Program-made: the position numbers and the translations under genes
Shown: positions 12,881-63,955 of the stretch, in pieces
Layout: each line of letters begins with the position of its first letter
Numbering within the stretch: the stretch's first letter is position 1
Notes under the pieces: model-generated
Told to the model about the DNA's origin: nothing
What the model saw: only the letters and a program-made list of their open reading frames with translations
The model's database searches: none
Origin: Desulfobacterales bacterium
GTDB taxonomy: Bacteria; Desulfobacterota; Desulfobacteria; Desulfobacterales; JAHEIW01
Length of the DNA stretch: 64,000 nt
Assembly (NCBI GenBank): GCA_030066985.1
Contig: JASJAN010000033.1
Location: forward strand, 1 to 64,000
Direction of reading: 5' to 3'

Positions 12881-12977
12881 GGTGCACGGCACAAGGCCAA
12901 AGGCGCAGGGCTGAGGCATAACATAACGAGGCCTCAGACAAGACATAACATGCGCCCTGGGCCCTGTGCCGTGCGCC
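12881..12977. repeat. Inverted repeat between permease and ATPase genes (E1)
   Basis: The left arm (12881-12906, beginning GGTGCACGGCACAAGGCC) pairs with the right arm (12952-12977, ending TGTGCCGTGCGCC), mismatching at few positions. A nested hairpin CTGAGGC/GCCTCAG sits at 12911-12937. It starts five bases after the permease stop and ends just before the GGAG site of the ATPase gene. Confidence 0.85.
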
Positions 12978-12993
12978 CTGTATGGAGTGTATT

Positions 12994-13731
12994 ATGGCAG
13001 AATCAACCAATATCGTGCGTGTGACCGATGTCTTTAAAACGTTTCAACTGGGAAAAGTTGAGGTTGAGGCATTAAAGGGGGTAAATCTTGAGATTGCGCG
13101 CGGCAATTACATTTCAATTATGGGTCCCTCCGGATCCGGCAAAAGCACCCTTTTTAATATGATCGGCGGTCTAGATAAGCCGACTTCCGGTAAGGTATTT
13201 ATCGATGAGGTGGATATCGCCCAACTGGATGCCTACGAATTGGCCTGGCTGCGCTGCCGCAAGATCGGCTATATTTTTCAAACCTTTAACATTATTCAGG
13301 TTATGACCGCCCTGGAAAATATAACTTTGCCAATGGTGTTTGCCGGGATGAACAATGACGCTGCGGTCGAAAAAGGATTGCAATTATTAGAGCTCGTGGG
13401 ATTGGGTGACCGTTTCAGCCATAAACCCTTTGAACTTTCCGGCGGCCAGCAACAGCGCGTGGCCATTGCCAGAGCCCTGGCCAATGACCCCGCCATTATT
13501 CTGGCGGACGAGCCCACCGGCAACCTTGACCTGACCACCGGAGAAGAAATTATTGCCTTGCTGAAACGCTTGAGCCAGGATCGCAATGTGACGGTAATAT
13601 CGGCAACCCATGATTTTAAGATGCTCAATGTGTCCGATCAGGTGGTCTGGATACGGGATGGCACCGTTGACAAAATTGAAGATCGCGAAGAGTTGTCAAT
13701 TTCGATCGGCAAGATCGATACCCGTCATTAG
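12994..13731 (+). CDS. ABC transporter ATP-binding protein, LolD/MacB type
   Basis: 245 residues from ATG 12994, chosen because GGAG at 12984-12987 sits seven bases upstream; ATG 12982 lies on that site. Walker A is GPSGSGKST, the Q-loop is FQTFNII, the signature is [15 protein letters not shown], and Walker B is [12 protein letters not shown] with the D-loop. The H-loop is SATHD. The ADEPTGNLD form and small size mark the mechanotransmission/lipoprotein-export ATPases (LolD, MacB, FtsE). It should energise the FtsX-type permeases on either side. Confidence 0.93.
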
Positions 13732-13740
13732 CATTTAGCC

Positions 13741-14010
13741 GTTGGCCACTGTTCACTGGCTGCTGGCAGACTGCTCCTAGCATCGTGTTTTAGGCAATTA
13801 ATACGAAAATTTATTGTACATGGATTTTCAGCAATATGTTTTTTAACTGCATATCAAAGAACCATAAACACACGAATCCTGCGCCGGGGACGGGAATGCC
13901 ATATTCCAACAACCAGGCACAAGTAGCCAGCAGCCAGGAGCCAGCTGCCAGTAGCCAGCAGCCAGAGACGAGCGGCCGGAAGCCAGTTGCCAGCAGCCAG
14001 CGGCGAGCAG
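13741..14010. repeat. Word inverted repeat overlapping the giant permease start (E2)
   Basis: CTGGCTGCTGGCAGACTGCTCC in the spacer (about 13756-13777, quoted in pieces: CTGGCTGCTGGCA then GACTGCTCC) is complementary to the CCAGCAGCCAGGAGCCAG-type words repeated at about 13920-14008. The right arm has several copies of a GCCAGCAGCCAG word. It lies within the open frame of the next gene and is translated into a Ser/Gln/Ala/Pro-rich stretch. Confidence 0.6.
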
Positions 14011-17000
14011 TAAAATGGTCTTTTGCATTTGTTATATTGCTTTGCAGCTTGCTGTGGATCCCCGCGGCAGATGCAGTGACCGAAAATAATTTGCCGGATG
14101 CCTTCAGCGACGTCATCAGCCGGCTTGCCGAGTTGAAAGATCGCAGCACGGGAACTGCCGGGAATGCGGCTGCAGCCCTTTATCTTAAAGAGAGATTTGA
14201 AAAACTGGGATACGAGAATGTGGGATCCTACCGATTTTCAGTGCCGGTCATTCAGCATTCCCAAAGCCAGTTAACCCTGCCAGACCAAAAACGCCCTGTT
14301 GAACTGAACCCCATCCTTGGCAATGCCGTGACGCCGCAAACGGTTGCCTCGCCCGGAGTTTCAGGCCCGCTGATTTATGCCGGTCGCGGTGAGCTGGCCG
14401 AATTAAACGGCAAACAAATCCCAAATTCAATCCTAATAATGGAATTGGATTCAGGAAAAAATTGGCTGAATGCTGCCAATTTAGGCGCGCGGGCAATCAT
14501 TTACGTTGATCGTGGAAATTCAACCAAATCGCTATTTGAAGAAAAGTTTGAACTGTCTCCTTTGCAATTTCCGCGTTTCTGGGTGTCGCTGGCGCGCGCC
14601 AGGGAGGTGTTCGGCGATTTTGAAAAGACACCCAACGGTCAGATTGCGGCCGAAGCCCGACTGGTCTCCCAGACGCGCTGGCAATTGGTGAGTTCGGAAA
14701 ATATTTACTGTTTTATCGACGGTGTTGACCGAAACCTAAAGGAGCGATTGGTCATGGTGGAGGCTTTTTACGACAGCACCGCCACCGTCGCTGGGCTATC
14801 GCCGGGTGCCGATGAAGCGGTGGGTATTGCCACCCTGCTTGAATTGGCACGCTTTTTAAAGAAACATCCGCCCAAACGATCCGTGCTGTTGATTGCCAGC
14901 AGCGGGCATGCCCAGACCCTGGCAGGTTTTCGCGAAATGATCTGGAGCATCTCCGCCAGGTCAAAAGACATGCGCAAATTGCAAAAATCATTTAAGGCGC
15001 TTGTCAAAGAAAAGCGCAAGACGCTTAAACTGTTAAAAAACTTTTCGGTCGATCCAGGGGCCAAAAACGAAGCCCTGGATGAGGAGACCGGCAAAATACT
15101 GAAAAACGCCATCGACCAACGCCTAAAAACAGAAGCCGACAGGGTGTCACGCCGCCTGATGCAGCTGCGGCTGGAGCAGGAGACCAGGGCCAGCGCAAAG
15201 CAAATTCAGAACCTGACCGATGAAAGACTGACGCTCAGGCGCCTGATGTGGAGTCCTGATTTTTCGGATTTGAACGCTGATGATCGCCAGGCACTTGCCG
15301 GACTCATTCCCAAAGCCATTAGCGACCAGAAGGCCATTTTATCCGATGTGCGCCGACACGCCAGAGAGATCGGTGACGCGCGTGCCTTTAGAAGCGCGGT
15401 AAGAGCCTATGACCTGGATGCAGCCCTATCTTTGCACCTGTCCAGTCGGGGCGACGGTTTCGGCGCCTTCAACTATGGGTGGGCTTTTCCGTTTAGGCCC
15501 CGGATTAACCGCACCGCGATTTACAGCACCTTAGATGAGGTCCTGAGCCAGGGGGCATCGCGAATAGAAAAAGAGCTGGGCATCGTCGGTATGTATAAAG
15601 ATAGCTTGCGCCCCAGTCGTAAACGCTCATGGCAAAGCTATTTTCTTGACAAGCCGCCGCTGGGCGGAGAGCTGACCGCGCTGGGCGGCATCCACGGGCT
15701 GACCTTTGTGACCACCCATGATGCCAGAGCGCGCTGGGGGACACCGTATGATACCCCTGAAAATGTGGATACGGCTTTTGCCCTCAAACAAAGCGCAGTC
15801 GTCTGTCGGTTGATTAAGCATCTGGCGCAAGTCCCCAAACTGCATGATGAAATTTTTCCCCGCTTTGGCTATTCCGCAATTATCGGAAGGGCTAAATTTT
15901 TGCGGCACGGTGAACTGTTTGCCGATCAACCGGCACCGGGAACCGTGTTGCTTTGCTACCAGGGCCCGGCACGCTTTTATGTGATGGTTGATCATCTGGG
16001 CAGTTTTTACCTCAGGGGGTTAGCGGATAAAAAGCACAGTTATCATAAAATCATTTTTGAAGGCTATAAATTTGATCCTGCAAGCGGCAATATTGTCTGG
16101 ACCATCGATAAAAAGAAAACCGGCAAAGTCGCTTATCGCGTGAAAATGTACCGGCGGTTAATGGAAACTGATCTGGTGATGTTTGCCAGCAACGGAATCA
16201 CTTTTTTTAACCTGCTGGAACCCCGAACATTCCGTCATCTGAGCAAGGTCAAGATTATTGACGGGCGCCGCGAATCCGATCCGCTGCGCTGGTTTATGAG
16301 CCGGCTCGACACCTGGATTTCGGATTACACCAATGCATCAACCATATCGACCACCTTTCTGGAGCCGGGCACCCCGTTAAAGTTAACCCTGTCCGATACG
16401 GTGCTGCGCAATAAACTGGTTCTGACCAATGCCAGCAAGGATAAATCCACCGGTGTCGGATTTATGGTGGGCCAGACGCCCTTTTTGCACCGCACGGCTT
16501 ACCGCGTGGCCAAAGACATGTGGACCCTTTTGGAGCCGCGCATATCCAATTTAGAAAAGCGCGGGATATTCAACGAGCGCATCCGCTCACTTCAGGAAGA
16601 TGGCCTGGGAGCGTTACAGACCGCCCAAACGGCTTTCGAGGACAAATTATACGATCGGGCATCCGAGGCCAGTATGCGCTCGTGGGCACTGGCCACGCGG
16701 GTATATGAGGATGTGGAAAAAACCCAGAAAGACGTTCTTTACGGAGTGTTATTTTACATCGCTCTTTTTGTTCCGTTTGCTTTTTGTATGGAACGTCTTT
16801 TGTTTTGTTATGCCAATATTTACAAGCGCATTATTGCCTTTATCATCATTCTCGTATTGTTAATTGCGCTGATCTACAATGTGCATCCGGCCTTTCGCTT
16901 GGCCTACAGCCCCATGGTGGTCATACTCGCCTTTTTCATCATGGGGTTATCTTTAATGGTGACGCTGATCATCTTTTTCCGTTTTGAAGGCGAAATGACC

Positions 17001-34089: not shown

Positions 34090-34218
34090 ACCACGAAGCA
34101 CACGAACCCGCCCGCCTCGCCTGAGCCCGCCTCAGGCGGACGATGGCGGGCGTGGGATGCACGAAGACACTAAGAAAAATAAAATTCCATTCTTCTTATC
34201 CTTCGAACTCTTCGTGGT
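34090..34218. repeat. ACCACGAAG inverted repeat carrying a nested GC-rich hairpin (E7)
   Basis: The outer arms are ACCACGAAGCACACGAA at 34090 and CTTCGAACTCTTCGTGGT ending at 34218. Inside, CCCGCCCGCC (34108-34117) faces GGCGGGCG (34146-34153), and GCCTGAG faces CTCAGGC around 34119-34137. The GC-rich part interrupts the AT-richer outer element, so it looks like one repeat inside another. It lies between tgt and the NifU-C gene. Confidence 0.8.
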
Positions 34219-34281
34219 AAAATTAAACTCATATATTCTCATTGATTCTAATAAACCTACGCAACCAAAGGAGATTGTATC

Positions 34282-34503
34282 ATGAAAGAAAAAGTTGAGG
34301 CAGCCCTTGAAAAAATCAGACCCATGTTGCAGGCCGATGGCGGGGATGTAGAACTGGTCGATGTTCAGGAAGGTATCGTGACCGTTCGATTGCAAGGGGC
34401 CTGCGCGGGATGTCCCATGTCGCAAATGACCCTTAAAAACGGTATTGAAAAAATACTGAAAAAGGAAATCCCGGAAATCGTATCAGTGGAATCAGCGCCA
34501 TAA
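34282..34503 (+). CDS. NifU C-terminal-domain protein (Fe-S scaffold/carrier)
   Basis: 73 residues, one NifU-C domain. [17 protein letters not shown] and [18 protein letters not shown] contain the C-x-x-C that binds a [4Fe-4S] cluster. Such single-domain proteins deliver clusters to target enzymes. It sits at the edge of the tgt and methylmalonyl-CoA genes and has AAAGGAG before ATG. It is separate from the full NifU at 48540. Confidence 0.93.
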
Positions 34504-34520: not shown

Positions 34521-34548
34521 GTCATTTCATGCAATAGATTGACTTGCC

Positions 34549-35093
34549 ATTCATTTATTGACTTGTCATTTATAGTCATACGTTCGCTTCGCTCACGTCA
34601 TTAAAAATGGGTAAGGATGAAGCTGGATGATTTGCACGTATATCAACTCTCAATGTCGCTGGGAGATCGAATTTGGGACATCGTTGTTAAGTGGAATTAT
34701 TTTGCAAAAGATATCGTTGGCAAGCAACTCGTGAAAGCAGCAGATTCAGTCGCTTCAAATATCAGTGAAGGATACGGAAGGTTTCATTATAAAGAGTCCA
34801 AACATTTTGAATATTATGCAAGAGGATCTTTGTATGAAACAAAAACCTGGATAACCAAAGCGCATAACCGTAGCTTGATCAATGATGCTGACTTTCATAA
34901 TTTTCAAAAAGACATCGACGTGCTTGGAATCAAACTGAATAATTATATTCGTTTAATCGGCAAAAAAGGTTCAGCTAACCAGATTTAGGTAACAGCAAGC
35001 AAAACAGTCGTGGTATTCAAACCATAATGACAAGTGGTTAAATGACGCTCCCGAAGGGGCAAATGACAATCAAAAATGACAATAAAATAGGAG
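34549..35093. mobile_element. Inverted-repeat element enclosing a four-helix-bundle gene (E8)
   Basis: The left flank (about 34549-34610) and right flank (about 35022-35093) are imperfect inverted copies built on a TTGTCATTT word. The left has TTGACTTGTCATTTATAG and CGTCATTAAAAATGG. Reading the right on the opposite strand gives TTGTCATTTTTGATTGTCAT, then CGTCATTTAACC. Both flanks carry a TTCG hairpin (GTTCGCTTCGCTC; CCCCTTCGGGAG). The gene at 34617 is the only content. It sits inside an otherwise co-directional metabolic operon. Confidence 0.6.
34617..34988 (+). CDS. Four helix bundle protein (23S rRNA intervening-sequence type)
   Basis: 123 residues. The family pattern is clear: DLHVYQLSMSLGDRIWDIV, then VKAADSVASNISEGYGRF, FEYYARGSLYETKTWITKAH, and DIDVLGIKLNNYIRLI. 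The first members were found inside 23S rRNA intervening sequences; free-standing copies are common and unexplained, and a relative (Avd) serves diversity-generating retroelements. Here there is no retroelement and no rRNA. The gene is flanked by inverted repeats, so it looks like mobile cargo. Confidence 0.85.
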   Translation: MKLDDLHVYQLSMSLGDRIWDIVVKWNYFAKDIVGKQLVKAADSVASNISEGYGRFHYKESKHFEYYARGSLYETKTWITKAHNRSLINDADFHNFQKDIDVLGIKLNNYIRLIGKKGSANQI

Positions 35094-35099
35094 TATTCA

Positions 35100-35504
35100 A
35101 TGAAAATCTTAAAAATTGATCACCTGGGTATTGCGGTTAACAGCATCGATGACGGCAAAAACTTCTGGACCGATGTTTTGGGTCTTGCCTATGAGGGATC
35201 GGAAACCGTGGCGGAACAAAAAGTCACGACGGCCTTTTTCCCGGTTGGCGAAAGTGAAGTGGAATTGCTGGAATCCACCGCGCCCGATGGGCCGATTGCC
35301 AAGTACCTTGAAAAAAAAGGCGAGGGGATTCAGCATGTGGCCTTTCGTGTGGAGAACATTGAAGAGGCTTTAAGTGAATTAAAGGAAAAGGGCATACGCT
35401 TGATTGACGAAACCCCGCGGATCGGCGCCGGTGGGGCCAAAATTGCTTTTCTGCACCCCAAATCCACCAACGGGGTGTTGGTGGAGCTGTGCCAGAGAGA
35501 TTAG
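35100..35504 (+). CDS. mce: Methylmalonyl-CoA epimerase
   Basis: 134 residues of VOC (glyoxalase-like) fold. It starts MKILKIDHLGIAVNSIDDG with the first metal histidine, then GIQHVAFRVENIEEAL, and ends LHPKSTNGVLVELCQ with the last metal glutamate. The enzyme interconverts (R)- and (S)-methylmalonyl-CoA, and the downstream mutase acts on the (R) form. AATAGGAG precedes ATG 35100. Confidence 0.95.
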   Translation: MKILKIDHLGIAVNSIDDGKNFWTDVLGLAYEGSETVAEQKVTTAFFPVGESEVELLESTAPDGPIAKYLEKKGEGIQHVAFRVENIEEALSELKEKGIRLIDETPRIGAGGAKIAFLHPKSTNGVLVELCQRD

Positions 35505-35541: not shown

Positions 35542-35649
35542 TTAGGTGCCAGGTGTCAGTGTTCAGGTGTCAGTCCTTATATTTGTCCCTGACACCTGAA
35601 ACCCGACACCTGAACCGCCAACGGCGGAACTTTTGAGCCTGATACCTAA
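35542..35649. repeat. GTGTCAG/CTGACAC word inverted repeat (E9)
   Basis: The left arm 35542-35573 reads TTAGGTGCCAGGTGTCAG then TGTTCAGGTGTCAG. The right arm has CTGACACCTGAAACCCGACA, then CCTGAAC at 35588-35614, and GCCTGATACCTAA at 35637-35649. A nested CCGCCAACGGCGG palindrome (35615-35627) interrupts the right arm. It occupies the spacer between mce and the mutase gene. Confidence 0.82.
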
Positions 35650-39167: not shown

Positions 39168-40721
39168 ATGGGTGTTGTCGAAAATAAAATCAAAGAACTG
39201 AAGGAACGTGAAGCCAAAATCCTTGCGATGGGAGGCGAAAAAGCGGTTGCCAAGCAGCATGAAAAAAACAAGCTCACTGCCCGTGAACGGTTAAATCTCT
39301 TATTTGATGAGGGGACGTTTCGCGAAATTGATATGTTTGTCAATCATCGCTGTGTTAATTTTGGCATGGAAAAAGTTGACATCCCCTCTGACGGGGTCAT
39401 CACCGGCCATGGAATGGTGGACGGCCGGCCCGTGTTTGCGTTCTCTCAGGATTTTACGGCCAGAGCCGGCAGTTTGGGGGAGATGCATTCCAAAAAGATC
39501 TGCAAGGCCATGGACTTGGCCTTAAAAGCCGGTGTTCCGTTTGTGGGGATAAACGACTCGGGGGGTGCCCGTATTCAGGAAGGTGTTGATGCCCTCTCCG
39601 GGTATGGCCAGATTTTTTTCCGCAATTCCGCCGCCTCGGGTGTCATACCGCAGATTTCAGCGATAATGGGCCCCACTGCCGGTGGCGCGGTGTATTCACC
39701 GGCCATGACTGACTGGGTGTTCATGGTCAAAGGCAGCAGCTATATGTTCATCACCGGACCTGAAGTTATCAAAGCCGTTACCGGTGAAGAAATTACCTTT
39801 GAGGATTTGGGCGGCGCTAAAACACATAATGAAAAAAGCGGTGTGGCGCACTTTGCCTGTGACAGCGATCAAGATGCTATTGATCGCATCAAACGGCTGT
39901 TATCCTATCTGCCTGCCAATAATATGGAAGATCCCCCAGTTGTGGATAGCGGTGATGATCCGCGTCGGTCCGATTCGGCGTTAAATTCGGTCATACCGGA
40001 CAACCCCAACAAGTCTTATGATATCAAAGACATCATTCGTGCCATTGTTGACAACGGGGAATTTTTCGAGCCCCATCAATATTTTGCCCGCAATATGGTG
40101 GTATGTTTTGCCCGATTGAATGGCAGAAGTGTTGGCATTATCGCCAACCAGCCGAAGGTGCTGGCCGGCTGTCTGGACATCAATGCGTCGGACAAAGCCA
40201 CCCGTTTCATTCGATTTTGCGACGCGTTTAATATTCCGATGCTGACCATCGCCGATGTTCCGGGGTATCTGCCGGGCAGCCAGCAGGAATGGGGAGGGAT
40301 TATCCGACATGGTGCCAAGCTCTTGTGGTGTTATTCAGAGGCGACAGTGCCCAAGCTGCTGCTGGTCACCCGCAAAGACTACGGGGGCTCGTATCTGGCC
40401 ATGTGTTCCAAAGACCTGGGAGCGGATATGGCATTTGCCTGGCCTACGGCGGAAATTGCCGTCATGGGTGCGGCGGGCGCGGCCAATATCATCCACCGCA
40501 AGGAAATTTCGCAAGCTGAGGATTCAGCCACCAAGCGCCAGGAAAAAATTCAAGAATATGAAGAGCTGTTTTCCAATCCTTACCAGGCAGCCAATCGGGG
40601 TTATATTGATGCGGTCATCGAGCCCAGCGAGACCCGGACGCGCCTGATCGATGCCCTGGAAGTATTATGCACCAAACGGGAAACCCGGCCACCGAAAAAA
40701 CATGGCAATATCCCCATGTAA
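39168..40721 (+). CDS. Acyl-CoA carboxyltransferase beta subunit (methylmalonyl-CoA 12S type)
   Basis: 517 residues with two crotonase-fold halves. The N-half has KKNKLTARERLNLLFDEGTF, GINDSGGARIQEGVDAL and IMGPTAGGAVYSPAMTDW. The C-half has VADVPGYLPGSQQEWGGII and TRKDYGGSYLAMCSKDLGAD with AFAWPTAEIAVMG. This domain moves a carboxyl group between methylmalonyl-CoA and biotin. The next two genes supply a small subunit and the biotin-carrying 5S chain, so it is part of a methylmalonyl-CoA:pyruvate/oxaloacetate carboxyl-transfer system. Propionyl-CoA carboxylase is the alternative, but no biotin carboxylase is here. Confidence 0.93.
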   Translation: MGVVENKIKELKEREAKILAMGGEKAVAKQHEKNKLTARERLNLLFDEGTFREIDMFVNHRCVNFGMEKVDIPSDGVITGHGMVDGRPVFAFSQDFTARAGSLGEMHSKKICKAMDLALKAGVPFVGINDSGGARIQEGVDALSGYGQIFFRNSAASGVIPQISAIMGPTAGGAVYSPAMTDWVFMVKGSSYMFITGPEVIKAVTGEEITFEDLGGAKTHNEKSGVAHFACDSDQDAIDRIKRLLSYLPANNMEDPPVVDSGDDPRRSDSALNSVIPDNPNKSYDIKDIIRAIVDNGEFFEPHQYFARNMVVCFARLNGRSVGIIANQPKVLAGCLDINASDKATRFIRFCDAFNIPMLTIADVPGYLPGSQQEWGGIIRHGAKLLWCYSEATVPKLLLVTRKDYGGSYLAMCSKDLGADMAFAWPTAEIAVMGAAGAANIIHRKEISQAEDSATKRQEKIQEYEELFSNPYQAANRGYIDAVIEPSETRTRLIDALEVLCTKRETRPPKKHGNIPM

Positions 40722-40822
40722 ACGGTTTGCCGGTTGTCCGGTTTTGCCCGTTTAACTCGTTGTGGCCTCAAAGACCTCAGTTTTCCGGCAATACCGGAAA
40801 ACGGGCTCAAACGGTTTAACCC
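40719..40822. repeat. GCCGGTT/GCCCGTTT word inverted repeat (E10)
   Basis: The left arm (40719-40756) contains GGTTTGCCGGTTGTCCGG and TTTTGCCCGTTTAAC. The right arm (40780-40822) contains TTCCGGCAATACCGG, AAAACGGGCTCAAACGG and TTTAACCC. It begins on the carboxyltransferase stop codon and ends just before the AAAGGAG of the next gene. The same word family returns at 50745. Confidence 0.82.
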
Positions 40823-41062: not shown

Positions 41063-41070
41063 GGGGTTTT

Positions 41071-41141
41071 TTGTGTTTCGTATTTCGTGTTTCGTATGTT
41101 TTTCACGATTACGTTCTACCAAACACCAAACACTAAACACC
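41071..41141. repeat. GTGTTTCGT/ACACCAAAC word inverted repeat (E11)
   Basis: The left arm (41071-41096) is three words, TGTGTTTCG, TATTTCG, TGTTTCG. The right arm (41117-41141) is ACCAAACACCAAACACTAAA then CACC. It lies between the small subunit and the 5S/biotin gene. Confidence 0.8.
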
Positions 41142-41175
41142 TTGCTTCTAAAGCATATAAAAGGAGTGCCAAAAA

Positions 41176-43203
41176 ATGAATGACGACATTCAAGTAAAAA
41201 ACACGACAATGAATTATGACAAAGATCGGCCCGCGGCGGAAAACCCTATCAAGATAGAGGACCTCTCGCTTCGTGATGGCCATCAATCCCTGTTTGCGAC
41301 CCGGGGTCGCACCGAAGACATGATTCCGGTGGCCGAAATGATGGACGATGTCGGTTTTTGGGCCATGGAAGTGTGGGGCGGAGCAACCTTTGACACCATG
41401 CACCGCTTTTTAAATGAAGATCCCTGGGAACGTCTTCGTACCTTAAAACGCTATATCAAAAAGACGCCGTTTTCGATGCTGCTGCGGGCCCAGAATCTGG
41501 TGGGTTATCGCAACTATGCCGATGATGTCGCCAAGGCCTTTGTTGAAAGGACCTGTGAAAACGGCATGGACGTCTTTCGCACCTTTGACGCCCTCAACGA
41601 CTATCGTAACTTTGAAACGGTCGTTCCGGTGATTAAAGAGTACGGCAAGCATTTTCAAGGCTGTATCTGCTATACGATGACCGAGCCGCGCATGGGCGGA
41701 GAGGTCTATAATATCGACTATTACGTCAACAAGGCCAAAGATCTGGAAAATATGGGAGCTGACAGCATCTGCATCAAAGACATGGCCGGCCTGCTGGCGC
41801 CTTATGATGCGTTTCATCTCATCAAAGCACTGAAAGCGACCGTCAAACCGCCGATTCACCTGCACAGCCATTTTACCTCCGGAATGTCGCCGATGACGCA
41901 CTTAAAAGCCATCGAGGCCGGGGTGGATATTATTGATACCGTTATGTCGCCCTATGCCTATCGGACCTGCCATGCGGCCATCGAGCCCCTGGTGATGACA
42001 CTGCTGGGCACCAATCGGGACACCGGTTTTGACATCCGACTGCTGGCCCAGATCAATGAAATTCTTGAAAAAGAGGTCATGCCCAAATACCGGCATCTGC
42101 TGGATGATACCAAGGTGTCCATCATCGACATTAACGTGCTGCTCCATCAGACGCCGGGCGGAATGCTGTCCAACCTGGTCAATCAATTACGAGAAATGGA
42201 TGCGCTCGATAAGATTGATCAGGTATATGCCGAATTGCCGCGGGTCAGAAAAGAGCTGGGGCAAATTCCACTGGTTACGCCCACCAGCCAGATTGTGGGC
42301 ACCCAGACGGTCAACAATGTTCTGTTTGACGACGAAAAAGAACGCTATAAAATGATCACCGGCCAGGTTAAGGACCTGTGCTACGGTCTGTATGGTAAAA
42401 CCGCTATACCCATTGATGGCGAAGTGCAGAAAAAGGCCCTCAAAGGTTATGACCGCGGAGAGGAACCCATTACCTGTCGCCCGGCGGAGGTGCTGGAGTC
42501 CGAGCTGGTAGAAGCCAAAGATAAGATCGGTGATTTGGCTGTTGATTTGGACGATTTGCTGATCTATGCGCTGTACCCGGTCACCGGAGAGCGATTTTTA
42601 AAATGGAAATACGGCAAAGAACAGGCCCCGCAGGATGTGCAGCCCAGAACGCTGGAGGATGCGGCTGCCGAGCAGGAGCTGATTAAAAAGGCCAAGGCCG
42701 GCCTGCTGGTTGAAAAAGGCGGTAAAAATGGTCCTGAAAGAAGCGAAAACACGCGCACCTTCAATGTCTTTGTAGGTGAAGATTATTTTGAAGTAGCGGT
42801 CGACGAAATCGGCGGCTCACCGGTGGTCAGCTATGTTCAACCAATGGCTGCGGGTATGCAGATGCCGGCTGCCGCTCCGGCTGCGCCTGCCGCCCCGGCA
42901 GCTGCACCTGCCGCTGCAAAACCGCCGGCCTCTGAAGCCAAAGAAGCCAAGGCCGAAGCGCCCGCTGCCGCCCCGGCAGCAGTCGTTGAAGGCACTCCGC
43001 TGACCGCACCGATGCCCGGCATGATTATCAAATACGCAAAACAAGAAGGCGATGCCGTCAACGAGGGTGAAACAGTGGTGATACTGGAAGCCATGAAAAT
43101 GGAAAACGCCCTGCCGTCACCGGCAAGCGGCACAATTAAAAGCCTCAACTTCAGTAGCGGCGATTCGGTGGCCAAGGGTGATGTGCTTGCTGTGATAGGT
43201 TAA
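41176..43203 (+). CDS. Biotin-carrying carboxyltransferase 5S subunit (OadA/PycB type)
   Basis: 675 residues. The HMGL-like barrel begins IEDLSLRDGHQSLFATRGRT and contains the metal region ICIKDMAGLLAPYDA and HLHSHFTSGMSP. A conserved carboxyltransferase domain follows. A flexible Ala/Pro linker (~545-590) leads to a biotinyl domain with EAMKMENAL, the lysine being the biotin site. It moves carboxyl between oxaloacetate/pyruvate and biotin. Unlike the three-chain Propionibacterium enzyme, 5S and biotin carrier are fused. Strong AAAAGGAG site. Confidence 0.95.
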   Translation: MNDDIQVKNTTMNYDKDRPAAENPIKIEDLSLRDGHQSLFATRGRTEDMIPVAEMMDDVGFWAMEVWGGATFDTMHRFLNEDPWERLRTLKRYIKKTPFSMLLRAQNLVGYRNYADDVAKAFVERTCENGMDVFRTFDALNDYRNFETVVPVIKEYGKHFQGCICYTMTEPRMGGEVYNIDYYVNKAKDLENMGADSICIKDMAGLLAPYDAFHLIKALKATVKPPIHLHSHFTSGMSPMTHLKAIEAGVDIIDTVMSPYAYRTCHAAIEPLVMTLLGTNRDTGFDIRLLAQINEILEKEVMPKYRHLLDDTKVSIIDINVLLHQTPGGMLSNLVNQLREMDALDKIDQVYAELPRVRKELGQIPLVTPTSQIVGTQTVNNVLFDDEKERYKMITGQVKDLCYGLYGKTAIPIDGEVQKKALKGYDRGEEPITCRPAEVLESELVEAKDKIGDLAVDLDDLLIYALYPVTGERFLKWKYGKEQAPQDVQPRTLEDAAAEQELIKKAKAGLLVEKGGKNGPERSENTRTFNVFVGEDYFEVAVDEIGGSPVVSYVQPMAAGMQMPAAAPAAPAAPAAAPAAAKPPASEAKEAKAEAPAAAPAAVVEGTPLTAPMPGMIIKYAKQEGDAVNEGETVVILEAMKMENALPSPASGTIKSLNFSSGDSVAKGDVLAVIG

Positions 43204-43362
43204 AAGGTTCAGGGTTCCGCGTTCAGGGTTAATCGGTTGCGCGTTACGCGTTGCGGGTTGCAGGATAAACTTGCCAACTGCTGGCATCCAGCAACTAGCT
43301 GCCATTGATCGTAACCTTGAACCTTTGAACCCTGAACCCTTGAATCAGGCGCCTTACGCCTG
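43204..43362. repeat. GGTTCAGGGTT word inverted repeat with nested hairpins (E12)
   Basis: The left arm (43204-43230) is AAGGTTCAGGG, TTCCGCGTTCAGGGTT. The right arm (43313-43344) is AACCTTGAACC, TTTGAACCC, TGAACCCTTGAA. Between them are GCGCGTTACGCG (43239-43250) and CTGCTGGCATCCAGCA (43279-43294). A small TCAGGCG/CGCCTGA hairpin follows at 43345-43362. It lies between the biotin subunit gene and sucC. Confidence 0.82.
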
Positions 43363-45723: not shown

Positions 45724-45784
45724 GATGCAAATCGGCTCTTACATTCAGGGTCAGTTAGCCTTGCAAATGAGACATTAATACGCA

Positions 45785-45839
45785 GGTTATTGGTTATCTG
45801 TTATTCGTTATTCTAATAACCAATAACCAATAACAAATA
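45785..45839. repeat. GTTATTG word inverted repeat (E5)
   Basis: The left arm (45785-45813) is GGTTATTGGTTATCTGTTAT then TCGTTATTC. The right arm (45814-45839) is TAATAACCAATAACCAATAA then CAAATA. The arms touch, so this would be a compact hairpin. It uses the same words as the element at 21232, 24 kb away. It sits between sucD and hypA. Confidence 0.85.
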
Positions 45840-45917
45840 GCTGCTCCAGCAGAGTCGGGGCGGTATTTTTTTTGAGACCGTAAAGGATTATTATATCGAA
45901 GCGATAGGCGACTGCGT

Positions 45918-50680: not shown

Positions 50681-51296
50681 ATCTGGCGAAGCTCTTTTGC
50701 AAAAGTGGATAAGTGGTGAGTTCTCAAATATAGTGGGTCGTATCAACAGGTTGGCCGGTTTGGCCCGTTGAGCCCGTTAGCCCGTTTAGAAAGGAACCAT
50801 ATCTTATCTTGATCAACCGGCAAACGGGCTCAACGGGCTCAACAGGCTTAACCCTTTAGAAAGAATAGTCGGGGTGGCAGCCTAAGACTCTTTCCATGTC
50901 CTTCCCCTTTTGCGTCCACAACACATTCAAATCCGAAATCACCCCTACTTTAAAACCAGATCTGCTCTCCTCCGGCCGCGCTGATGGCATTCCCGTGCAC
51001 ATGGGAAAATAGGTAGCTGCGGCACAACAAAATCTTCAAGCTGAAAGACGTGCGCCATGGTTTCCGTTACATTGTCAGGAAAAAACATGGTGCCGGTGAT
51101 TTCGAAATGGACACTTCAACCACAAAACTTTGGGAAATTGAATATTCGCTTTGCCAGAGTCCAACCGGCAAACCACCCCGAAATCGGATTTTGAATTTTC
51201 AGGATTTTATGAGAGGATACCACCTCCTCATCTGCTAAGGGTGGTACCATAATTCATCTCACAATTCAACAGTAAAGCGGGTTTTAAGCGCTTAAG
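50681..51296. other. 616-bp intergenic region with one inverted repeat
   Basis: Apart from the repeat at 50745-50854, the stretch 50860-51296 shows no supported gene. A 62-codon opening at 51050 has no ribosome-binding site or family resemblance. GGATACCACCTCC and GGGTGGTACC near 51216-51247 form a loose inverted pair between the convergent MEMO and glnS genes. Confidence 0.45.
50745..50854. repeat. GCCCGTT/AACGGGC word inverted repeat (E15)
   Basis: The left arm (50745-50787) has GGCCGGTTTGGCCCGTTGAG then CCCGTTAGCCCGTTT. The right arm (50815-50854) has AACCGGCAAACGGGCTCAAC then GGGCTCAACAGGCTTAACCC. Each arm has three to four copies of the word. It is related to the element at 40719. Confidence 0.85.
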
Positions 51297-63800: not shown

Positions 63801-63950
63801 ATGACAGAGTTCAGACGACAGAAAACAGATAACAGAGGACAGAAGACAGAGGACGGAGTTCAGAGAACTGTAATAATACATCAGACACAATGCATTAGAT
63901 TCAATAGCAGTCTGACATCTGACATCTGACATCTGACCTCTGATCTCTGA
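63801..63950. repeat. CTGACATCTGA/CAGAGGACAGA word inverted repeat (E16)
   Basis: The left arm (63801-63866) consists of many GACAGA/CAGAGGACAGAAGAC words. The right arm (63912-63950) has TCTGACATCTGACATCTGAC then ATCTGACCTCTGATCTCTGA. It lies between nrdR and ribD and ends five bases before the ribD ATG. A separate CCGCCATCGC/GCTAAGGCGG hairpin sits near 63740-63763. Confidence 0.8.
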
Positions 63951-63955
63951 AACGA

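Follow-up and report, generated by a model that had tools for sequence, protein, structure and literature searches.

The 23S rRNA intervening-sequence proteins (S23; PF05635), the family to which the gene studied here belongs, are widespread; to our knowledge they have remained without a known function ever since the early-1990s descriptions of intervening sequences (IVSs) bearing such open reading frames, and we know of no catalytic activity for them. In Coxiella, the 428-nt 23S IVS combines an S23p ORF, a terminal inverted repeat and heptameric GACAGAT direct repeats of variable number (PMC4990558). The distribution of 23S IVSs is sporadic and they have been proposed to be mobile (PMC4990558), a proposal with the ORF as a component being attributed in that paper to Ralph and McClelland (1993). 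Like the IVSs of Coxiella and Leptospira, the S23 units described below carry a sense S23 ORF, terminal inverted repeats and heptameric repeats, although the arms of the copy in our window are themselves weak. The IVS sits in the 23S rRNA gene, whereas the window unit lies between protein genes, and subfamily-specific words, gene-less hairpins of the same word and an arm sharpness that follows S23 belong to the S23 units only, not being described for IVSs in the literature examined. The 23S rRNA IVS is the known special case of the S23 unit, from which anatomy and proposed mobility were already familiar; a search of the open literature (subscription papers and preprints lay outside it) found no paper linking S23 genes to intergenic word arrays.

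Other described systems share part of this anatomy. REP/REPIN sequences with their RAYT (TnpA-REP) genes resemble the S23 unit in having a single gene within inverted palindromic arms together with many gene-less palindromes; however, the S23 protein is a four-helix bundle without the HUH/Y1 catalytic domain, and its arms are arrays of 7-8-nt words rather than GTAG-tagged palindromes. Avd, the accessory protein of diversity-generating retroelements (4DWL, 8UB7), shares the modeled fold of S23, but the reverse transcriptase of those elements has no counterpart in the window genome (0 RVT_1 matches). MITEs are likewise short gene-less inverted-repeat units found at several places, as is a 144-nt unit described below; they differ in that no transposase relative was found. 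A TTAA target duplication is possible. Finally, heptamer repeats in Xanthomonas (GGGAATC), Nostoc (GGGGA(C/T)T) and Beggiatoaceae (TAACTGA) have been described as G-quadruplex or translational elements, without S23 (PMC4692102, PMC4679880), the intergenic Xanthomonas heptamers forming 70 convergent inverted pairs (PMC4692102). These published arrays are intergenic like the S23-word arrays, and the S23 protein XCC0516 (2GSC) comes from Xanthomonas campestris; by analogy, the GGGAATC heptamers are a plausible candidate for a further case of S23 words.

The window, that is, the whole stretch of 64,000 nt that was analyzed, comes from a Desulfobacterales genome of 5.07 Mb that is 97.8% complete (G000; G001 is its sister genome, and L-numbers denote the loci compared). 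An initial annotation made from the letters had read the gene at 34617 as being of the rRNA-intervening-sequence type, and profile searches agreed, matching the ORF to PF05635 (E 1.3e-24, 86.9 bits, curated cut-off 33.8) and to TIGR02436 (E 3.1e-24, 85.3 bits, curated cut-off 24). PF05635 was the only domain in the ORF, and no Y1/HUH transposase domain was found in the unit. The predicted monomer (pLDDT 94.3) matched XCC0516 (2GSC) and BT_0352 (2RLD) with TM-scores of 0.83 and 0.80, indicative of a four-helix-bundle fold, and also matched the Avd structures cited above. The known assembly of 2GSC is a pentamer (PMC4990558). The S23 gene is in sense with both neighbors, all three lying on the + strand (Table 1).

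Table 1. Features of the S23 unit, its neighbors and the gene-less word hairpins of the window
Feature	Position	Strand	Basis or remark
NifU-like 73-aa protein, left neighbor	34282-34503	+	Conserved anchor for site comparison
Left word array (TTGACTTGCCATTCATTTATTGACTTGTCATTT), outer arm of unit	34538-34574	+	Direct and inverted repeat search; subfamily word TTTGTCA of L023/L046/L049
Short hairpin within left end (ACGTTCGCTTCGCTCACGT)	34580-34598	+	Read directly; weak RNA fold, z -1.1
S23 four-helix-bundle gene, 123 aa	34617-34988	+	PF05635 and TIGR02436 profiles, predicted fold
Right inverted word array (AATGACAAGTGGTTAAATGA ... AAATGACAATAAAATA)	35026-35089	+	Repeat search
Short CGAA hairpin inside right array	35047-35060	+	RNA fold z -0.3
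Methylmalonyl-CoA epimerase, right neighbor	35100-35504	+	Conserved anchor for site comparison
Gene-less CACGAAG-word hairpin upstream of NifU-like gene	34090-34219		In G000, G001, G003; absent from G002
Gene-less GGTGTCA-word hairpin	35544-35617		Word of sister-species S23 units L069/L070/L074/L076; RNA fold z -7.1
Gene-less word hairpin (GGCACAA)	12881-12977		Hairpin scan
Gene-less word hairpin (CTGGCCG/CAGCCAG), loop ~190 nt	13728-14013		Word like that of S23 unit L073
Gene-less word hairpin (GTTATTT)	21228-21325		Fold z -2.5
Gene-less word hairpin (CCGGTTTGC)	40719-40818		Hairpin scan
Gene-less word hairpin (GTGTTTC)	41063-41149		Word of S23 unit L059 in G001
Gene-less word hairpin (GGTTCAG)	43197-43343		Word of S23 unit L054 in G001
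Gene-less word hairpin (GTTATTG)	45782-45847		Hairpin scan
Gene-less word hairpin (GAGCCCGTT)	50754-50847		Hairpin scan
Gene-less word hairpin (CAGAGGA)	63804-63955		Word of S23 units L002/L018/L024

Inverted word flanks around the gene, also part of the initial annotation, were recovered by repeat searches as two arm pairs, 34551-34570/35026-35045 (20 nt, 85%) and 34556-34571/35074-35089 (16 nt, 81%), with inverted TTGACTTGTCATTT/AAATGACA copies on both sides of the gene. The score of the upstream against the downstream flank was 13.0, compared with 12.5 for the 95th percentile of mismatched pairs, and is borderline when judged alone. The inverted words are real, but they are a worn, degenerate copy. 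As RNA, the whole unit folded no better than shuffled sequences (z -0.73), and the same was true of its small TTCG and CGAA hairpins (z values in Table 1); the former value gave no support to a strong RNA structure for the unit. No other gene of the window lies inside such flanks, as had been claimed, and about ten gene-less word hairpins are found there besides the S23 unit. The weight of the case comes from the family: the nearest protein relatives (L023, L046 and L049) have crisp TTTGTCA/TTGGTCA arms whose word is identical to that of the window unit.

The window genome encodes six S23 proteins. The expectation that each copy in the genome be flanked by inverted repeats held for five of the six genes, the word being different each time (GGACTGA, CAGAGGT, TTGTCATT, GAAACTT and AGTGAGCTAA types) and the arms of the four other flanked copies being much clearer than those of the window unit; it failed for the sixth (L003), which has no arms, and roughly 10-20% of S23 genes overall are without clear ones. 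When the comparison was extended, 137 of 169 S23 loci (~80%) scored at least 12.5 for inversion between upstream and downstream flanks, vs. 3 of 58 other small genes from the same loci (3-5%), one of these three being itself part of an S23 unit (MWU, p 3e-21). Of the 169 loci, 94 were the scorable ones in G000 and related genomes; the other 75, from many phyla, were those that best matched a typical S23 alignment and so sample the family unevenly. Eight more cyanobacterial plasmid S23 genes and one between nrdB and nrdA all scored 14.5-31.5.

Arm identity in the 135 scored units was 0.66 at lag 7, 0.65 at lag 14 and 0.64 at lag 21, against ~0.25 at most other lags; lag 7 was the best in 109 of these units, with 8-nt words in the minority. 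Read inward from either end, the arms were G-rich and C-poor in 121 of 133 cases, with a weak common pattern (C/T)AG(T/G)GGT. Among S23 genes with co-directional neighbors, 104 of 110 were in sense according to a simple ORF rule. This recurring arrangement is termed an S23 unit here: an S23 gene enclosed by inverted ~7-nt word arrays, ~0.45-0.65 kb in total, seated in an operon gap. The claim that neither known context of the family applies here stood in part: Rfam gave no rRNA match at 12 loci, and a scan of S23 loci for conserved 23S motifs was negative throughout; in anatomy, however, the Coxiella 23S IVS corresponds to the S23 unit (PMC4990558). The possibility that S23 loci are hidden 23S rRNA IVSs was rejected for the loci examined on this lack of rRNA matches. 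A search for S23 in phages gave no match, and E. coli K-12, one of the control genomes searched, had no S23 either.

The similarity of S23 proteins between genomes was correlated with that of their words (Mantel r 0.29, permutation maximum 0.08, p ≤ 0.0005), and remained so once pairs with homologous flanks were taken out (r 0.27, maximum 0.09), with both members having the same word in 85% of the remaining pairs whose protein similarity exceeded 0.8. The word varies between elements and is specific to the S23 protein subfamily.

Whole units, arms and gene together, recur in near-identical form (88-95% identity over ~450-630 bp) at unrelated sites, both within a genome (L012/L037, L070/L074, L050/L052) and between families (L068/L075), and the identity of these moved copies ends at the outer arm edge or no more than ~80 bp from it. 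Thirteen genomes of the Brucella/Ochrobactrum genus have a 478-bp S23 unit at the stop codon of puuA, and 16 empty sites read in the same genus are clean, with a gap of 14-29 nt; this orthologous empty site concerns the puuA unit and not the insertion in our window. The filled site has TTAA next to either end of the unit where the empty site has CTGA; this TTAA could be a duplication or could belong to the word array. Each of the 13 genomes has exactly one S23 gene, and these genes are under purifying selection (median dN/dS ~0.05, with dS near saturation). A search for insertion polymorphism at the Nostoc nrdBA plasmid site matched only the record itself. The suggestion that the window gene belongs to a mobile unit was borne out at the level of the family by the recurring units and clean empty sites, and the S23 unit is apparently a mobile element with a bacteria-wide distribution.

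The gap between the NifU-like and epimerase genes, which holds the S23 unit in G000, differs among relatives. In G001 it retains word ends as in the G000 unit, with S23 reduced to its last codons (IGKK...ANPL-stop), and in G002, G003 and G005 it is occupied by gene-less hairpins built of other words. The G000/G001 alignment is good on the right side only, the deletion join on the left having been read by eye, and the G001 sequence is an internal-deletion derivative of the S23 unit. This remnant and the other-word hairpins indicate that gene loss can create gene-less hairpins and that the hairpin type in a gap changes between species. The neighboring gene-less hairpin upstream of the NifU-like gene (Table 1) contains, in G000, an extra GC-rich palindrome (CCGCCTGAGGCGG type) that is absent from G001 and G003.

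Gene-less hairpins are frequent in G000, where 464 kb of sampled sequence contained 23 strict word hairpins (Markov-shuffled sequence, 0), which extrapolates to ~250 per genome. Eight S23-less genomes gave 1 hairpin in 254 kb, and some S23 genomes also gave none; across the order, hairpin density showed a modest correlation with S23 count (Spearman 0.50, p 0.025). The G000 hairpin words matched S23-arm words of their own family with a score of 13.3, compared with maxima of 10.6 for column-permuted words and 11.8 for the S23 arms of other genomes; gene-less hairpins bear the words of S23 units from their own lineage. For GAGCCCGTT and CACGAAA words an S23 partner was not found. Hairpins of the GAGCCCGTT word recur in the genome (in the window and at L190 and L194), and no S23 unit of this word was found in the family. 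In Ochrobactrum, one 144-nt hairpin, loop included, recurs at other sites with 83-91% identity.

The association between arrays and S23 was examined in 35 genomes of the Brucella/Ochrobactrum genus (13 with and 22 without S23) by counting a 20-nt word pattern. The 13 genomes with S23 had 47-122 occurrences each; of the 22 without, 15 had none, 6 had 1-19, and G069, in which a contig ends inside the unit, had 86 (MWU, p 4e-7). Three S23-less genomes (G074, G042 and G060) fall inside S23-bearing groups in trees of the S23 locus and two other loci, and the well-supported branches force at least three changes, so that, within this one genus and these few loci, the association is not the effect of a single clade. 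At one orthologous gene-less hairpin, the arm-arm score was 21.5 (sharp) in genomes with S23 and 10.3 (worn) in those without (p 1.4e-4, G069 left out), the identity at lag 8 being 0.66 vs. 0.46; the S23-less G058 and G054 are exceptions that retain sharp arms. This contrast is correlational; of all the evidence it speaks most strongly for S23 acting in trans. A role of S23 in the spreading of hairpins, as put forward in the initial annotation, is thus in line with the coupling of word and subfamily, the lineage-specific words and the genus-wide presence pattern, all of which amount to correlation.

Starting from unit structure, subfamily words, movement, gene loss and array-S23 association, all read from sequence, we infer S23 binding, re-copying and host chemistry as follows. 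The window locus probably represents a small mobile element in a worn state, the S23 protein of which recognizes hairpins of its own word and helps host enzymes to maintain or copy them in trans. The S23 pentamer would bind word arrays of its own subfamily and would act on every hairpin bearing that word; host replication or repair enzymes, helped by S23, would re-copy the folded strand, so that each arm is rewritten after the other, and the re-copied hairpin might occasionally be copied into new gaps. Units that have lost the gene, as G001 has at the window site, would live on as gene-less hairpins for as long as other S23 copies serve them and would decay once no S23 remains. The DNA-copying step by the host, taken alone, is doubtful. 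Against the reading as a whole, G000 hairpins of the same word have no visible loop in common, a pattern not expected from simple copy-and-paste; the degenerate state of the window unit, the S23 genes without clear arms, the modest density correlation and the sharp arms of G058 and G054 also count against it.

The main rival to the mobile-element reading, which we consider unlikely, is that S23 is an RNA-binding regulator useful to the host and that the hairpins are mRNA binding sites kept by selection, which decay after S23 is lost. Maintenance in trans, purifying selection on S23 and the sense orientation in operons (104 vs. 6) would all be explained in this way, but one and the same gap holds different words or none in related species, copies move while their neighbors are unrelated, and the neighbors (NifU/MCE, carB/purF, guaB/guaA, puuA, nrdB/nrdA, cas6/cas4) have no common theme. 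It is more improbable still that another system, such as Y1/RAYT transposases, moves the word hairpins and that S23 genes merely land in them. Consistent with such a passenger role, G000 hairpins far exceed S23 genes (23 in 464 kb vs. 6 in the genome) and Y1_Tnp is found in most relatives; however, word and S23 subfamily are coupled, array presence follows the S23 gene in the Brucella/Ochrobactrum genus, and the Y1-rich G014 and G006, which are without S23, have no hairpins in the stretches sampled. Furthermore, G013, G016 and G027 have S23 units and no Y1_Tnp match, so RAYT transposases are not required. Least probable of all is that S23, like Avd, serves a reverse transcriptase that copies the unit RNA, as the modeled Avd fold, the strong sense orientation and the IVS history of RNA hairpins and RNase III (PMC4990558) might suggest, since RVT_1 gave 0 matches in G000 and in 12 further genomes that have S23, one of them G021, whose moved copies are 95% identical; a reverse transcriptase is therefore not required, and this partner was rejected on genome content.

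Returning to the mobile-element reading, a broader form of it is possible and is offered tentatively: a class of mobile elements with no recombinase, transposase or polymerase of their own, in which a pentameric S23 protein recognizes folded DNA or RNA by its own 7-nt word and makes host enzymes rewrite and copy such hairpins in trans, thereby spreading its gene and sustaining gene-less hairpins, with 23S rRNA IVSs and several heptamer families as instances. The coupling of each S23 subfamily to its own heptad word provides a candidate substrate for a family without a known function, places rRNA intervening sequences among the landing sites of a general element and offers a possible source for the intergenic heptamer arrays reported piecemeal in bacteria. 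It also points to mobility without a self-encoded enzyme and cautions that an S23 gene next to a CRISPR or metabolic operon may have inserted there without being a functional partner.

Several observations were made at individual loci. An armless S23 subfamily (L003, L057, L060 and L061), with flanks conserved in one family, looks domesticated or vertically inherited. S23 units with inverted word arms lie between cas6 and cas4 on cyanobacterial plasmids (L355, L359), and others, with differing words, occupy the guaB-guaA gap in several betaproteobacterial genera (L133, L139, L154, L165, L172), possibly a recurrent landing site. At the L283 site (L292-L316), most repeats have switched word in parallel in the two arms (GGGAGTA vs. 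GGCAGTA types), a concerted replacement. Additionally, in L328 (G051) and L330 (G074), at the site of L285, the hairpin flanks lie ~6 kb apart and in opposite orientation, as if an inversion breakpoint fell in the hairpin.
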